DNA from: Actinomycetales bacterium
Lineage (GTDB): Bacteria > Actinomycetota > Actinomycetes > Mycobacteriales > Micromonosporaceae
Assembly: GCA_002919305.1 (NCBI GenBank)
Contig: PKFB01000007.1
Span: 1 to 64,000, forward strand
Reading direction: 5' to 3'
Length of the DNA stretch: 64,000 bases
The position numbers were made by a program, and so were the translations under genes. Below are positions 6,217 through 20,366 of the stretch, piece by piece. Every line of letters starts with the position of its first letter. Position 1 is the stretch's first letter. Below the pieces are notes generated by a model. That model saw nothing but the letters and a program-made list of their open reading frames with translations. It did not search any database and had not been told where the DNA came from.

Positions 6217-6250
6217 GCGGCCCTGGCCTGCCATCCCAAGCCAGGGCCGC
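6217..6250 (-). terminator. Strong hairpin ending the tRNA array
   Basis: A perfect 11-bp GC-rich stem (GCGGCCCTGGC / GCCAGGGCCGC) with a 12-nt loop lies 34 bp beyond the last tRNA. On the minus strand it is followed by a T-containing tract. It is the natural terminator of the array transcript. Confidence 0.65.
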
Positions 6251-6283
6251 GCGTGGGGGTGGATGGCATGTGGATATGGGAAG

Positions 6284-6356
6284 CGCCTCCGGCTGGACTC
6301 AAACCAGCGACCCCCGGGTCCGGAACCCAGTGCTCTATCCGCTGAGCTACGGAGGC
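6284..6356 (-). tRNA. tRNA-Arg (anticodon CCG)
   Basis: All four arms fold: acceptor GCCTCCG/CGGAGGC, D stem GCTC/GAGC, anticodon loop TTCCGGA reading CGG codons, T stem GCTGG/CCAGC with loop TTTGAGT. The discriminator is G and no CCA is encoded. It is the last gene of the array. Confidence 0.92.
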
Positions 6357-6485
6357 TCTGACCGTGAAGCGTGGTGTGGGCGGCGTTCCTGCCAGGACCA
6401 CCAGGGGCGGTCCACTCGGCGGTCGTCTCACCTGGTGGGGTGCGCCGGTAGCGGCGGTGGTCCTGACACCCCGATAGCAAGAGGG

Positions 6486-6559
6486 CGTCCCGGGCTGGAT
6501 TTGAACCAGCGTCTGCGTCCCTGCAAGGGGCGTCCTCTTCCAAACTGAGGTACCGGGAC
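6486..6559 (-). tRNA. tRNA-like gene with anticodon TGC but no alanine identity pair
   Basis: Acceptor GTCCCGG/CCGGGAC, D stem CCTC/GAGG and T stem GCTGG/CCAGC are perfect. The anticodon loop CTTGCAG reads as TGC (alanine). The anticodon stem CGCCC/GGACG has a C29-A41 mismatch, and the third acceptor pair is C3-G70 instead of the G3-U70 that alanyl-tRNA synthetase requires. It may be charged by another enzyme or be non-functional. Confidence 0.75.
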
Positions 6560-6586
6560 AACAACAGTTATGGAGTGAGCTTAAAG

Positions 6587-6659
6587 GTGCCCGGGCTGGA
6601 CTCGAACCAGCGTCCTCCGGCCCAGCCGGGCGGTGCTCTGTCCGCTGAGCTACCGGGAC
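6587..6659 (-). tRNA. Degenerate tRNA-like gene, anticodon uncertain
   Basis: The D stem GCTC/GAGC and T arm GCTGG-TTCGAGT-CCAGC are intact, but the acceptor GTCCCGG pairs with CCGGGCA only over five base pairs. The anticodon region does not give a seven-base loop with U33; the simplest fold is CCGGC-TGG-GCCGG. A proline anticodon (GGG or TGG) is possible. I regard it as a decaying or pseudo-tRNA. Confidence 0.55.
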
Positions 6660-6707
6660 CAGAATCGGGGATCGTGCCTGACTATAACGATCGAGTTCCC
6701 TTTCGCG

Positions 6708-6780
6708 TACGCCGCGAGGGAGTCGAACCCTCGACCCGCTGGTTAAGAGCCGGCTGCTCTGGCCTCTGAGCTAACGGCGC
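6708..6780 (-). tRNA. tRNA-Lys (anticodon CTT)
   Basis: Acceptor GCGCCGT/GCGGCGT with wobble pairs at both ends, D stem GCTC/GAGC, T stem GAGGG/CCCTC with TTCGACT. The loop CTCTTAA gives CTT. The anticodon stem GCCGG/CCAGC has a C29-A41 mismatch, the same place as in the gene at 6486. Discriminator A. Confidence 0.85.
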
Positions 6781-6803
6781 GTAATAAATATTGAAGTGAT
6801 GTG

Positions 6804-6877
6804 TACCCCCAGCAGGACTCGAACCTGCGACCTCGACGTTCGTAGCGTCGCGCGCTGTCCAACTGCGCCATGGGGGC
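6804..6877 (-). tRNA. tRNA-Arg (anticodon ACG)
   Basis: Acceptor GCCCCCA/TGGGGGT, D stem GCGC/GCGC, anticodon stem CGACG/CGTCG with loop CTACGAA, T stem GCAGG/CCTGC. The A34 would be edited to inosine to read CGN codons. G1-U72 is a wobble closing pair. Discriminator A. Confidence 0.9.
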
Positions 6878-6883
6878 GTTATG

Positions 6884-6957
6884 TCCCGCCGGCAGGAGTT
6901 GAACCTGCGACCTCCGCTGTATCAGAGCGGCGCCCTTACCACTTGGGCCACGGCGGG
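6884..6957 (-). tRNA. tRNA with anticodon GAT (isoleucine)
   Basis: Acceptor CCCGCCG/CGGCGGG, D stem GCCC/GGGC, anticodon stem CCGCT/AGCGG with loop CTGATAC, T stem GCAGG/CCTGC. The anticodon reads ATC. The C1-G72 pair and a C at position 38 are unusual for isoleucine tRNA. Only six bases separate it from the next array gene. Confidence 0.85.
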
Positions 6958-6985
6958 AATTCACACAGGCAAATATGGGAGTGAG

Positions 6986-7060
6986 TACCCGGGGCACGAT
7001 TCGAACGCGCACTGTCCTGACCCTGAATCAGGTGCCTCCTGCCGGTTGGGCTACCCGGGC
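6986..7060 (-). tRNA. tRNA with leucine anticodon CAG but short variable loop
   Basis: Acceptor GCCCGGG/CCCGGGT, anticodon stem CCTGA/TCAGG with loop TTCAGGG, T stem GCGCG/CGTGC all fold; the D stem has one mismatch. The anticodon CAG reads CTG leucine codons. Bacterial leucine tRNAs are normally class II with a long variable arm; this one has only five bases, so its charging is uncertain. Confidence 0.8.
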
Positions 7061-7071
7061 ATGGGGGAGCG

Positions 7072-7145
7072 TGGACTCTGCCGGATTTGAACCGGCGACC
7101 TCCTGCGTGCAAGGCAGGCGCTCTACACCACTGAGCTAAGAGCCC
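7072..7145 (-). tRNA. tRNA-Ala (anticodon TGC)
   Basis: Acceptor GGGCTCT/AGAGTCC contains the G3-U70 alanine identity pair. D stem GCTC/GAGC, loop CTTGCAC, T stem GCCGG/CCGGC, discriminator A. It is canonical and is the first gene of the array. Confidence 0.95.
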
Positions 7146-7149
7146 GGGG

Positions 7150-7218
7150 GCCGGTCCGCCGGGTCAGCGTCCGGCGGACCGGCGCATGCCCTCGGCGCGG
7201 TAGCGGTACGCCGAGGGC
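7150..7218. repeat. Two consecutive strong hairpins upstream of the tRNA array
   Basis: The first is a perfect 13-bp stem (7150-7162 with 7171-7183) and an 8-nt loop. The second is a perfect 10-bp stem (GCCCTCGGCG 7188-7197 with 7209-7218) and an 11-nt loop. They start five bases before the first tRNA, so they would be in the 5' leader of the array or insulate it from upstream transcription. Confidence 0.7.
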
Positions 7219-7763
7219 GGTGAGTGGGCCTCACCCGATATCCCACAACCGGTTGGACCTAACCGAATGGGTGGGCCGTGAATAAAGCTCTCAATACATG
7301 CCATCCACTATGGAGTTATCAAGCTGCCGCCCCGAAAAGACCGGGGTACGCGCGGGTATCGCGAATCGAACCAGCCCAACTCTCGGGGTGGTGGTTTTCA
7401 ACGACTACGCCGGATTGGAATCGGTGCGGCCCAATGAGAAAACCGCCCGTTCCGGGACCGGACGAGCGGCTATTGAGGCGTTGACGCGCTAGCGTCGCCT
7501 GTCCGGTCCAGCAGTAATCGCCAGAATGCTCACGAGGCCGGTTTTCTTCGATGGGGATAGGACGATCTTGTCGTACGACGCTTGGCGTCGCACGGAGATC
7601 GCGTTCAGTACCCGCATCGTCGTCTCCCGACTGGCTCGTTTGCTCAATGCGGTTTCCACGATAGGAACCACCGGGCTGACCAACAACTTAATTTTTTCAT
7701 CCGTCCGTCCTGGCGGTTGCTCCACCGCTGTTCCAGGGCCGGTGCGGAGCCAAGGCACAGGTG
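7219..7763. other. Interval without a recognisable gene
   Basis: About 545 bp of lower G+C than its neighbours. Frames are short and lack ribosome sites. The array promoter, read on the minus strand, should lie here but no clear -35/-10 pair was identified. Confidence 0.45.
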
Positions 7764-8519
7764 TTATGTGGAGTCGGTGGTGTTCTCCGTCGACGGCGAC
7801 CGTAAAGCCGCCCGAGCGTTGAGGTAGCTGTCCAGTGCGGCGGCACCGGCGAGCATGGCGCGGCCCCGGGCCACAAGGCGGGTGTGCCAGTCACGCAGCG
7901 TCGCCTCCAGTGGGGCGATGCCGCCGGCGGCACGGACCTGATCGATTAGTGGGGCGATCTGGGGCAGCAGGTAGCCGCCCCGTCGAAGTTGCTGAATCAG
8001 CTGGGCGTCGCGGACATCGGCCGCGCTGTAGACCCGGTACCCCGTGCGCGGGTCCCGGTCCGGATGGAGCAGTCCGGCGCGTTCCCATTTACGCAGCGTG
8101 GCCGGGCGTACGCCGAGTCGTCTGGCCAGCAGGCCGATGAAGGTGGGGGTGCCGGGGTCCCGTGGCACGGGGCCGAGGGCACGCAGGGCGGCTTCGACGG
8201 CCTGGAGGGTACGGCGGTCCTCACGCAGCTGGGTGTGGCTTTCGTCGATGAGCCGCAACGCGTCGTCCACCGCGTCCTGGTTGACGGCGCGCATGATCGC
8301 CACGGCTGTCTGGTGGCCGTGCCCGGACACAAGAGCCAGGAACGCGCGCAGCGCCTGCGCGTGCAGCGGCGTGTAGGCGCGGTAGCCGTGGAGGGTGCGA
8401 TCAGCGGCTGGGAGGACCCCGGCCGCTTCATAGTTCCTCACCGCCTGAGTGGACAGGCCATGCTCCCGCGCTAAATCAATCGGCCTCAGACGACCCCGGT
8501 TTTGAAGGTTACGCGTCAC
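7764..8519 (-). CDS. Regulator with two tandem MerR DNA-binding domains (TioE-like)
   Basis: From the GTG at 8519 the protein has 251 aa. The first MerR winged helix begins at LRPIDLAREHGLSTQAVRNYE and ends near GYRAYTP (residues about 10-45). A second begins at IGLLARRLGVRPATLRKWERAG and ends near GYRVYSAADVRDA (residues about 128-165). Each is followed by a helical stretch. Single-chain double MerR proteins of the TioE type can occupy an operator as one polypeptide. An upstream TTG at 8561 would add 14 residues and overlap the palindrome, so I prefer the GTG. It is divergent from the esterase-family gene at 8579, its probable target. Confidence 0.85.
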   Translation of the reverse strand: MTRNLQNRGRLRPIDLAREHGLSTQAVRNYEAAGVLPAADRTLHGYRAYTPLHAQALRAFLALVSGHGHQTAVAIMRAVNQDAVDDALRLIDESHTQLREDRRTLQAVEAALRALGPVPRDPGTPTFIGLLARRLGVRPATLRKWERAGLLHPDRDPRTGYRVYSAADVRDAQLIQQLRRGGYLLPQIAPLIDQVRAAGGIAPLEATLRDWHTRLVARGRAMLAGAAALDSYLNARAALRSPSTENTTDST

Positions 8520-8556
8520 TGTCCTGCGGATATCGCGGAGAAGTTTCAACCGAGAG

Positions 8557-8574
8557 TTCAACGATATCGTTAAA
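8557..8574. promoter_or_regulatory. Palindromic operator between tandem-MerR and esterase genes
   Basis: AACGATATCGTT (8560-8571) is a perfect 12-bp palindrome, extending to 18 bp with one mismatch. It ends five bases before the esterase-family ATG and covers the region where both divergent promoters should lie. Confidence 0.6.
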
Positions 8575-8578
8575 GGGC

Positions 8579-9817
8579 ATGATTGCTGACATCGCAGGCG
8601 TGGTTCATGCCGTTGACGCCGCCGCCGTCATGGCGCAACTCCCCAACCGACCCCGTGTGTTGGCGCTGGGAGAACCCACGCACAACGAAGAGGAGCTGCT
8701 CGCGCTCCGCAACGCGTTGTTCCGGCAGCTGGTTGAACAGGAGGGCTACCGGACGATTGCTTTAGAGATCGACTGCATCAGGGCCCTGATCGTCGACGAC
8801 TACGTCACCTCAGGCGCAGGGTCCCTGGATGAGGTCATGGAGCGGGGGTTCAGCCATGAATGGGGCGGCTTGGCCGGCAACCGTGAGCTGGTGCGGTGGA
8901 TGCGTGCGTACAACGCTGATCGCCCCGCCTCAGAGCAGCTGCGCTTCGCCGGCTTCGATGGCCCGTTAGAGATCACCCACGCCGCAAGTCCTCGGCAGGC
9001 CCTCATCGCGCTTTATGACTATCTGGCGGTCCGGGTGGAGGCCGACCTGCTTCCGTGCACCGTGGAGACCCTCGACCGCCTGCTCGGCGCTGACGACCAG
9101 TGGACCAACCCCGCCGCGATGCTGGACCCCTCCCAGTCCGTGGGGCAGACCCCCGAGGCCACCCAGCTGCGGTTGCTCGCCGATGCCCTGGTGGCTCTGC
9201 TCGACGCGTGGGCGCCGCACCTGACCACGGTGTCCACACCTCAGGAGTGGGAGCGGGCCCGCCTGTTCGGGCGTACCGCCGTCAGCCTGCTGCGCTACCA
9301 CTCCTGGATGGCCGACACCTCCCCTGGCCGTATGGCGTGGCTGCTCACCGTGCGGGACTCGCTGATGGCCGCCAATCTGCTCGCGCTTGCCGAGCGGGGA
9401 CCGACACTGGTCTACGCCCACAATGCGCACCTGCAGCGGAGCAAAAGCACGATACGGATGGGCGACTCGCCGGTGGAGTGGTGGAGCGCCGGCGCGATCG
9501 TCGACACCCACCTAGGCGGGGAGTACGCCTTCCTAGCCACCGCCGTCGGCGCGATCCCGCACCGGGGTGTGGACGCGCCGCCTGCGGACACCGTCGAAGG
9601 GATGTTGTACGCGCTCCCAGAAAACCAGTGCGTGGTTGATCCCCAACGTGTGGTCGCCGCGGTCCCCACCCCACCTGTCCCCCGGGTCTCTCCCTGGTTC
9701 GGGTACGCCCCACTGGACCCGACGCAGCTAGGCACTATCGACGGGCTCGTGTTCGTCAAAGACCTCTCGCGAAGCCCGACCTCCGCGACGTCCACGGGTG
9801 GCGGCTCCCACCCCTGA
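8579..9817 (+). CDS. Erythromycin esterase family protein
   Basis: This 412-aa protein matches the family containing EreA/EreB and succinoglycan-biosynthesis relatives. Family motifs visible are LALGEPTHNEEELLALRNA near the N-terminus (ligand His and Glu), ALEIDC, SHEWGG and VYAHNAHLQRS in the C-terminal half. True Ere enzymes hydrolyse the macrolactone ester of 14-membered macrolides, but many family members do not, so the substrate is uncertain. The ATG at 8579 has only a weak ribosome site. Control by the divergent tandem-MerR protein is likely. Confidence 0.88.
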   Translation: MIADIAGVVHAVDAAAVMAQLPNRPRVLALGEPTHNEEELLALRNALFRQLVEQEGYRTIALEIDCIRALIVDDYVTSGAGSLDEVMERGFSHEWGGLAGNRELVRWMRAYNADRPASEQLRFAGFDGPLEITHAASPRQALIALYDYLAVRVEADLLPCTVETLDRLLGADDQWTNPAAMLDPSQSVGQTPEATQLRLLADALVALLDAWAPHLTTVSTPQEWERARLFGRTAVSLLRYHSWMADTSPGRMAWLLTVRDSLMAANLLALAERGPTLVYAHNAHLQRSKSTIRMGDSPVEWWSAGAIVDTHLGGEYAFLATAVGAIPHRGVDAPPADTVEGMLYALPENQCVVDPQRVVAAVPTPPVPRVSPWFGYAPLDPTQLGTIDGLVFVKDLSRSPTSATSTGGGSHP

Positions 9818-9935
9818 CGGTCCGCCGCACCCCGCCTCGCTCCTCTGGTTATGGTGATCACGGTGCCGCGGCCCGCGTCACCCCGGACGAGCGCGCTGCC
9901 GTACCCGGACCAGCAAAGACGGCGCGCAGAAGATC

Positions 9936-10232
9936 ATGAATCTCAGCGACCTCATCGAGATCACTGGCTCACTGATGATCCTGGCCGCCTTTGCGGCGGC
10001 TCAGCGACACATCCTGGACATCCAGTCCCTAACCTATCTGATCTTGAACATCGTCGGCTCCGCAGTGCTGGCGGTCATCGCCCTGCTGGACCGCTCGTGG
10101 GGCTTCCTGCTGTTGGAAGGCACCTGGGCCATCGTGTCGACGATCTCCCTGGTGGGGGTGCTCCGTCGCCGCCTGACGCGTCACCCCTCAGGCGCGGCGT
10201 CGCCCCAGCAAAACCCGACGGCAGAGCACTGA
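9936..10232 (+). CDS. Small membrane protein, CBU_0592 family
   Basis: 98 aa with three hydrophobic segments: LIEITGSLMILAAFAAA, LILNIVGSAVLAVIALL and FLLLEGTWAIVSTISLVG. The pattern and length match the CBU_0592-type family of uncharacterised inner-membrane proteins. The C-terminal 20 residues are polar and probably cytoplasmic. It may be cotranscribed with the YnfA-like gene 84 bp downstream. Confidence 0.75.
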   Translation: MNLSDLIEITGSLMILAAFAAAQRHILDIQSLTYLILNIVGSAVLAVIALLDRSWGFLLLEGTWAIVSTISLVGVLRRRLTRHPSGAASPQQNPTAEH

Positions 10233-19328: not shown

Positions 19329-20366
19329 TCACCGATCCTCAAGCTGATCGAGGGCCGTGGTGACGACCTCCGCCAACCGGTACGCCGGAGACCGCCCCAG
19401 GGACCGGCGGGCCCGGTCATACCGCCGGGTGGTGCGGGGATCAGCGTGACCGAGCAGGTCCTGCACCGCGTGCAGCGGGGCACCGGCGTCCAGCGCGTGG
19501 GTGGCAGTGGTATGCCGGATGGAGTGCGGCGACAGCTGCTCCGCATGGGCGACGCCGGCCGCCCGGGCGACCCGCCGGATCAACCGCAGCACATACGGCT
19601 CATCCAAACGCCGCCCGGACCTGGTCGCAAACAGCGGCCCTGTGGTGGGGTGGCCCCGCTCAGCCAGGTAGACGTCGATGGCGTGCGCCGCCGGCGGCGG
19701 CAATACCAGCCGCCGCCGCTGTCCACCCTTAGCGATCAGATCCAGGACACGGTGCCCCGTGTCGACCCCGAGTGCGGTGACATCCGCCGCCAACAGGGAG
19801 CCCACACGGGCACCGGTGGCGTACAGCGTCCACAGCAACGCGTGGGTCCGGGCGCTTTCCCGGTCCCGGGCGTGGGCGAGCATCGCGGCGAGCTCCTCAC
19901 GGGACAGCCCGCGCGTCGCCGACTCCCGACCCGGGGCCGGCCGCTCCATCCCCTGGAACGGGTTGGAGGGGACCAGACGCGCGCGGACTAAATACGCGTA
20001 CCAGGAACTGACGGCGGCCAGGCGCCGCGCCACCGTCGACCGTGCCAGACCGGTAGCGCTGGTCGCGGCGGCGTACTGGTCCGCGTCGACCGGCCCCGCC
20101 TCCGTCGGGTGGCGACCTCGAGCCGCACACCACGCCAACCACCAGGACACATCACGGGCGTACGCGGTGCGGGTCGCCGGGCTCGAGCGTCGACCTGAGG
20201 CGAGCCAGGTCGCGGTCACCTCCGCCACCGCCTGCCCATACCCCGCGGCGACCGCGGCGAGCAACTCATCCACGTCGCGTGCCGGCGGGGTGCCCCGCAG
20301 CCCGGGAAGACCCGTGGCCGATACGGCGACATCGACCGGGCGAAAACTCAACGCTACGTCGGTCAC
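19329..20366 (-). CDS. Tyrosine recombinase (XerC/XerD-like integrase)
   Basis: 345 aa. A SAM-like core-binding domain spans about residues 50-150 (SSPATRTAYARDVSWWLAWC). The catalytic domain shows Arg in LYATGARVGSLL, Lys region KGGQRRRLVL, the HSIRHTTATH box, LGHADPRTT and the nucleophile Tyr in TTRRYDRAR. All active residues are present. Homologues perform chromosome-dimer resolution or integrate mobile DNA. It starts with GTG at 20366 and faces away from two AT-rich palindromes in its upstream region, which are candidate substrate sites. Confidence 0.93.
   Translation of the reverse strand: MTDVALSFRPVDVAVSATGLPGLRGTPPARDVDELLAAVAAGYGQAVAEVTATWLASGRRSSPATRTAYARDVSWWLAWCAARGRHPTEAGPVDADQYAAATSATGLARSTVARRLAAVSSWYAYLVRARLVPSNPFQGMERPAPGRESATRGLSREELAAMLAHARDRESARTHALLWTLYATGARVGSLLAADVTALGVDTGHRVLDLIAKGGQRRRLVLPPPAAHAIDVYLAERGHPTTGPLFATRSGRRLDEPYVLRLIRRVARAAGVAHAEQLSPHSIRHTTATHALDAGAPLHAVQDLLGHADPRTTRRYDRARRSLGRSPAYRLAEVVTTALDQLEDR

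Follow-up and report, generated by a model that had tools for sequence, protein, structure and literature searches.

Why would a bacterium keep a dense second set of tRNA genes, and what could turn such a set on? Few bacterial tRNA arrays have a known switch. We analyzed one such array in the window, a stretch of 64,000 nucleotides at the start of a contig of 111.8 kb, in a genome of 4.94 Mb (84 contigs).

Organization of the tRNA array

ARAGORN detected exactly eight tRNA genes within approximately 0.86 kb (6283-7145), all on the minus strand. All eight reached the Rfam tRNA gathering score, ranging from 73.5 to 38.9 bits. Transcription runs leftwards, in the order listed here.

7071..7145, minus strand: tRNA-Ala (TGC), intact, G3:U70 present
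6985..7060, minus strand: tRNA-Leu (CAG), short variable arm, array-family type
6883..6957, minus strand: tRNA-Ile (GAT), intact
6803..6877, minus strand: tRNA-Arg (ACG), intact, 93% identity with a relative's array copy
6707..6780, minus strand: tRNA-Lys (CTT), single anticodon-stem mismatch
6586..6659, minus strand: tRNA called Ser-GCT, degenerate, closest to array Val-GAC
6483..6560, minus strand: second tRNA called Ala-TGC, altered, without G3:U70, closest to array Val-GAC
6283..6356, minus strand: tRNA-Arg (CCG), intact

A preliminary description had reported eight genes on one strand in about 0.86 kb, spacers down to 6 bp and a strong terminal hairpin. ARAGORN and Rfam agreed on the gene set, the narrowest spacer measured 5-6 nt (6877/6883), and a hairpin (6217-6250) lies downstream of the last gene, with others upstream of the first. 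The boundaries given there, 6284-7145, fit the tRNA genes but miss the leader (to about 7617) and, at the other end, the closing repeat and terminator (to 6217). A tRNA array unit has been defined by at least two tRNA genes per kb and at least 20 tRNA genes (Tran 2016, via PMC5966550). The present array exceeds this density, with eight genes in 0.86 kb, but eight is fewer than 20; we therefore call it a short relative and not a formal tRNA array unit.

The gene called Ser-GCT (6586-6659) lacks U33 and a long variable arm and has two acceptor mismatches. The second gene called Ala-TGC lacks G3:U70, the pair that marks alanine tRNAs. The best match of both was a Val-GAC tRNA from a relative's array (85% and 77%, respectively), so we read them as what look like decayed copies of the array Val-GAC tRNA. 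Stems are kept in the other six, which look usable. The earlier statement that several members are unusual or degenerate is borne out for these two genes only; it does not extend to Leu-CAG, whose short variable arm is common in this family. In the family this arm is also found on chromosomal Leu-CAA, and in this genome on chromosomal Leu-TAG.

The genes G000:C14:16173 (Leu-CAA) and G000:C19:81108 (Leu-TAG) were the sole chromosomal tRNAs found for these anticodons, and both have a class I shape. Such short-variable-arm tRNAs, unlike the usual leucine tRNAs, were also present in relatives and other actinobacteria; a search of the open-access literature for them in Streptomyces returned nothing useful. 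Between the last two tRNAs, a gap of 126 nt (6357-6482) contains a near-perfect 13-nt inverted repeat (6390-6402/6456-6468). The arrays of relatives have Val, His or Tyr genes at this position, and the gap is perhaps a decayed gene. A match to the Y RNA YrlA at 6532-6617 was rejected, as it overlapped two tRNAs and scored 30.7 bits, far under the gathering cut-off of 69.

Redundancy and divergence of the array tRNAs

There were 59 tRNA matches in the whole genome, and each array anticodon had at least one further copy outside the array. The set is therefore redundant, and the comparison with chromosomal tRNAs that the preliminary description had proposed found no anticodon represented by the array alone.

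The six intact members were 83-93% identical to the same isoacceptor in the arrays of relatives, versus 59-81% to their own cognates; the latter values ruled out recent duplication of house-keeping tRNAs. Between the house-keeping tRNAs of two other genera and those of this genome, the median identity was 92-95%; between array tRNAs and cognates of the same genome it was just 68-71%. The anticodon loop was unchanged from the house-keeping form in 77 of 81 between-genus controls, 20 of 49 array genes and one of the eight genes in this array. Changed loops found here, such as CTACGAA of Arg-ACG, recur in the arrays of relatives. The array tRNAs make up a lineage of their own, which evolves faster and has changed anticodon loops.

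We also compared 16 distinct array Leu-CAG genes, retrieved by a pattern search that placed no constraint on the anticodon stem. In each of the 16 the stem formed all five pairs, with three to four pair types per position. This full pairing by varied pair types argues that array Leu-CAG, at least, is under family-wide selection for tRNA structure.

The array family in related genomes

Clusters of 5-35 tRNA genes were found in at least 17 of 60 related genomes, a minimum because part of the 60 was examined incompletely. In a collection of 84,980 species, the array-type Leu-CAG pattern matched 26 stretches. Micromonosporaceae accounted for 23, among them Actinoplanes, Dactylosporangium, Hamadaea, Catellatospora and Phytohabitans; the remaining three were Leu-TAA genes of Deltaproteobacteria. 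This distribution suggests that the window belongs to Micromonosporaceae. The arrays of relatives span nearly all amino acids and have a common gene order, with unrelated neighbours and sites that differ between genomes. Of 158 informative pairs, 128 had the six intact tRNAs in the order seen in relatives, a score that only 8 of 720 permutations reached; with locus L077, 15 of 15 pairs agreed.

We define the Micromonosporaceae tRNA-array family here by tRNAs closer to the array tRNAs of relatives than to their own cognates, the common order, a leader ORF with terminator, a boxA-like element and a closing repeat. All of these were found in the window. It lacks two further traits, tRNA-Trp as the first gene (as in most relatives' arrays) and an HNH endonuclease gene inside the array (approximately ten arrays of relatives), which were not taken as defining because they are frequent and not universal. 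The HNH gene is homologous to genes of mycobacterial array plasmids and of Nostoc plasmids. Its subfamily also occurs without tRNAs, including once in this genome (contig C26); no HNH gene adjoins the array in the window.

One genome with a 35-tRNA array has, in addition, a less compact group of nine tRNA genes at L217 (G010:C1:2313500-2318500), mostly array-like.

Leader ORF and predicted attenuator

The preliminary description did not mention a regulatory leader; a leader ORF and a terminator lie upstream of the first tRNA.

7489..7617, minus strand: leader ORF, 42 aa (MRVLNAISVRRQASYDKIVLSPSKKTGLVSILAITAGPDRRR), with a GGGAG ribosome-binding site and a TAG stop 19 nt before the terminator
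7434..7514, minus strand: attenuator region, matching the family model from the leaders of 29 relatives
7496..7509, minus strand: predicted antiterminator 5' strand, GGACCGGACAGGCG, at the end of the leader ORF
7455-7468, minus strand: predicted antiterminator 3' strand, which is also the terminator 5' arm
7436..7470, minus strand: intrinsic terminator (attenuator), hairpin GCCGCTCGTCCGGTCCCGGAACGGGCGG followed by TTTTCTC
7349..7386, minus strand: possible tRNA-Trp remnant, a weak T-arm-like match positioned as in relatives

In relatives, a terminator-like hairpin with a T tract lies 7-128 nt upstream of the first tRNA; no terminator was found in a few short or truncated clusters. Among the leaders in which it was found, 33 of 33 (30 distinct) had a short ORF that follows a Shine-Dalgarno-like sequence and stops 10-30 nt ahead of the terminator, against 1.7 expected from dinucleotide shuffles. 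The distance from the ORF end to the hairpin was 14-25 nt (median 20). The leader in the window has the same layout in different letters. Its ORF alone is not striking, as 56 of 1000 shuffles did as well. A covariance model for which 29 relatives, but not the window, supplied the sequences identified 7434-7514 with 37.5 bits (E 1.6e-6); the next match in the window scored 15 bits.

Most leader ORFs of relatives end in R/G-W-R-x, and the codons CGG TGG CGC are able to pair with the terminator 5' arm GCGCCGCC. The mean number of pairs between ORF end and arm was 8.3 in the 33 leaders and 4.9 in shuffles, with only 6 of the 33 clearly above shuffles when taken singly; the conservation of the antiterminator is partly due to sequence similarity among leaders. 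In the window, GGACCGGACAGGCG can form 10 pairs with CGCTCGTCCGGTCC, a number reached by 2 of 60 shuffles. The window thus has the sequence features of an attenuator, a short ORF over an antiterminator strand whose pairing is predicted to exclude the terminator.

Leader peptides vary widely and the third-position excess is small, so only frame and geometry look conserved. A conserved arrest peptide was rejected on this weak codon-position test, and because the peptide sequence is weakly conserved we propose a translation sensor instead. The window leader has no run of one codon. The putative tRNA-Trp remnant at 7349-7386 was discarded, its alignment being no better than that of shuffled sequence.

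An array-type attenuator (L164 9627-9720, 43.4 bits) was also found directly before a lone array-type HNH gene near 9810, without tRNAs. Loci with a lone HNH gene may therefore be what is left of arrays, or the switch may have been re-used.

boxA-like element and closing repeat

Further elements surround the tRNA genes.

7297..7322, minus strand: rrn-like boxA element, TTGATAACTCCATAGTGGATGGCATG, slightly degraded, overlapping 7296-7308, where the closing repeat has its 5' arm
7150..7218, minus strand: two strong hairpins (7150-7183 and 7188-7218) between the boxA element and the first tRNA
6259..6271, minus strand: 3' arm of the closing inverted repeat, partner of 7296-7308
6217..6250, minus strand: 3' hairpin, probable operon terminator

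Most arrays of relatives carry TTGAGAACTCCACAGTGGATGGCATG after the first tRNA, and in many the second half recurs inverted at the 3' end. When up to 3 mismatches were allowed, each match of the boxA-like element in 1.09 Mb fell inside an array. The element resembles the rrn spacer of three relatives (e.g., TTGAGAATTGCACAGTGGACG), with up to 18 of 21 positions identical; the copy in the window has 16 of 21. We take this spacer element to be the actinobacterial boxA with the processing-stem region. The exact array pattern gave no match in rrn operons, because these have AATT (or ATTT) where arrays have AACT. In the window the boxA is changed from TTGAGAAC to TTGATAAC. The element has an rrn-type boxA sequence and may bind NusB/S10 and act in antitermination. 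An array on an M. chimaera plasmid has CTTTGAGAACTACACAGTGGTGGCATC directly before its first tRNA, so boxA-like elements may be general to arrays.

The 13-nt closing repeat GTGGATGGCATGT has just two copies in the whole genome, both at the array. Approximately 1,900 random placements within the window gave inverted repeats of at most 12 nt. Transposon ends were considered and rejected in favor of a processing stem, because the repeat arm belongs to the rrn-like element found after the first tRNA of relatives.

Neighboring genes and mobility

The preliminary description had stated that actinobacterial arrays of this kind are often carried on phages, plasmids or integrative elements. The neighboring genes are ordinary and encode an FGGY kinase, a glyoxalase-like protein, a MerR-type regulator, an erythromycin-esterase-like protein, transporters, regulators and an SNF2 helicase. 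No phage, plasmid, conjugation or replication genes were found beside the array. Close linkage to mobile genes, for which a test had been suggested, did not appear: those seen were limited to an IS200 transposase (1115-1537) and, approximately 12 kb from the array, a tyrosine recombinase (19329-20366). The best nucleotide matches of the array were arrays in related genomes. In plasmid and phage collections, no nucleotide match went beyond one or two tRNAs, so a plasmid or phage origin was rejected by this approach. No flanking genes were common to the window and the arrays of relatives. The family thus occupies different sites with unrelated neighbors, which is consistent with mobility at some time. 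Together with the redundancy this partly supports the earlier interpretation, but element genes beside the array are missing.

A Guanidine-III riboswitch (Rfam RF01763) was detected at 9860-9928 on the plus strand with 40 bits, above gathering. It lies directly before a membrane-protein-like ORF of 98 aa (9936-10232) without a Pfam match, and the erythromycin-esterase-like gene is upstream.

Proposed regulation and alternative explanations

We consider it probable that the locus is a shortened, partly decayed reserve tRNA operon of Micromonosporaceae, inducible by stress via leader-peptide transcription attenuation. To the broader proposal we give slightly better than an even chance: Actinobacteria would hold an additional, silent set of tRNAs, controlled by an RNA switch that senses ribosomes (leader-peptide attenuator and rrn-type antiterminator), with nuclease-evading anticodon loops, induced when translation fails.

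The geometry of the leader suggests the polarity of the switch. Transcription would start upstream of the leader ORF. During normal leader translation, the ribosome at the stop codon would cover the ORF end but not the hairpin 14-25 nt further on; the terminator would form and the array would be off. If translation were blocked by an antibiotic, tRNA cleavage or starvation, with the ribosome stalled or absent upstream, the ORF end would be free to pair with the terminator 5' arm, and RNA polymerase would read through into the array. The boxA-like element may protect the polymerase along the long, untranslated and structured tRNA RNA, as in rrn operons, and the closing repeat may aid processing of the long precursor. 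The released tRNAs, with their altered anticodon loops, could substitute for depleted house-keeping tRNAs and might resist tRNA-cleaving enzymes. Likely inducers would be ribosome-targeting antibiotics or tRNA depletion.

If true, a conserved attenuator that ties transcription of the array to the movement of ribosomes would account for the retention of redundant, odd tRNAs, namely as a standby set for translation emergencies. It would connect such arrays with the response to antibiotics, with tRNA-cleaving toxins and with defense against phages, and makes the question testable in culturable relatives (Actinoplanes, Dactylosporangium).

Wear is evident in the boxA, in two of the eight tRNAs and in the tRNA that comes first in most relatives (tRNA-Trp), so the copy in the window may be dying, its switch perhaps intact while the cargo erodes. 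A decaying, unexpressed relic of a once useful array is possible but rather doubtful. The two degenerate tRNAs, the missing tRNA-Trp, the altered boxA (TTGAGAAC to TTGATAAC) and the eight members against up to 35 in relatives point that way; on the other hand, six tRNAs with stems, the leader ORF, the terminator, the antiterminator pairing and the 13-nt closing repeat are still there, and the worn copy may still work. We regard as unlikely a reading in line with the preliminary description, that a phage, plasmid or integrative element brought the array into the chromosome and that the tRNAs serve this element's own translation or anti-defense. Mycobacterial arrays are found on plasmids and phages (PMC5966550, PMC12803027), a related HNH gene occurs on mycobacterial array plasmids, and array sites differ among relatives. 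Against this stand the lack of element genes beside the array and the nucleotide matches, which are best to arrays of related genomes and cover one or two tRNAs only in plasmids and phages.

Two further readings appear very improbable. An array that has no part in stress and only raises the translation of frequently used codons would suit members that read common high-GC codons (CTG, CGG, AAG, ATC), but not tRNAs strongly diverged from the house-keeping set, nor relatives' arrays that span nearly all amino acids behind a terminator-bearing leader. We give equally little credence to the leader hairpin being just the 3' terminator of the upstream gene, with the short ORF due to chance. The MerR-type gene (7764-8561) does have the same orientation, and the single-case probability of the ORF is approximately 3-6%; yet the upstream genes of relatives differ while leader, spacing and terminator are common, and the model matched 7434-7514 independently.

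Comparison with known systems

Array units are known from Mycobacterium chromosomes, plasmids and phages (Morgado & Vicente 2018, PMC5966550; Yano 2026, PMC12803027). The reserve operon proposed here shares with them dense, redundant tRNA genes of low similarity to chromosomal cognates, variable sites and, in relatives' arrays only, an embedded HNH endonuclease. The boxA-like element just before the first tRNA of the M. chimaera plasmid array is another likeness. The mycobacterial units differ in having at least 20 tRNAs by definition; the array here has eight, and its neighborhood contains neither plasmid nor phage genes. The accessible parts of PMC5966550 and PMC12803027 report no leader-peptide attenuator for these units, and our model R1 found none at two mycobacterial array loci. 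In the open-access literature searched, no leader-peptide attenuator was described on tRNA arrays; this element is new here.

In Anabaena sp. PCC 7120, the trn operon is a reserve tRNA operon repressed by TrcR, with induction by antibiotics shown (PMC10272220). It likewise adds reserve tRNAs to the house-keeping set, and induction by translational stress, shown there, is proposed here. Its regulator is a ribbon-helix-helix repressor, whereas we predict a cis-acting RNA attenuator. Leader-peptide transcription attenuators are known for actinobacterial amino-acid genes (PMC1262725), and toiL is a stress-sensing uORF that senses several antibiotic classes (PMC12121999). All have a short ORF followed by alternative hairpins, with the ribosome position deciding, and the attenuators also share the terminator. 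Those systems control mRNAs, whereas the predicted target here is a tRNA operon and the leader lacks a single-codon run. Phage tRNAs with altered loops have been proposed to evade anticodon nucleases (PMC10264068), and tRNA supply rescues phages from tRNA-cleaving defenses (PMC11555353). The array resembles these in its anticodon loops, altered versus host tRNAs, or in added tRNA supply; it is host-borne, and nuclease evasion would be a parallel only.

RtcB, TROVE and the Met-CAT genes of related arrays

RtcB lies inside one relative's array and a TROVE (Ro60-like) gene beside 3 of 17 arrays. TROVE is absent from this genome, and RtcB is encoded on contigs other than that of the array. With neither gene beside the array in the window, RtcB and Ro60/TROVE were rejected as general array partners. 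The last array gene is called Met-CAT at L071 8854-8928, L074 10946-11018, L073 10679-10751 and L077 10403-10475. Its D arm is odd and conserved (about GGGCGTTGGCTGCCC), and in L074 it is followed by a TROVE/Ro60 gene. Possibly this last gene is a tRNA mimic resembling a Y RNA. At TROVE genes away from arrays (L138, L141, L142 and L145), one predicted tRNA (Asp, Met, Arg and Gly, respectively) was located within approximately 1.5 kb, and these lone tRNAs are possibly miscalled Y RNAs.
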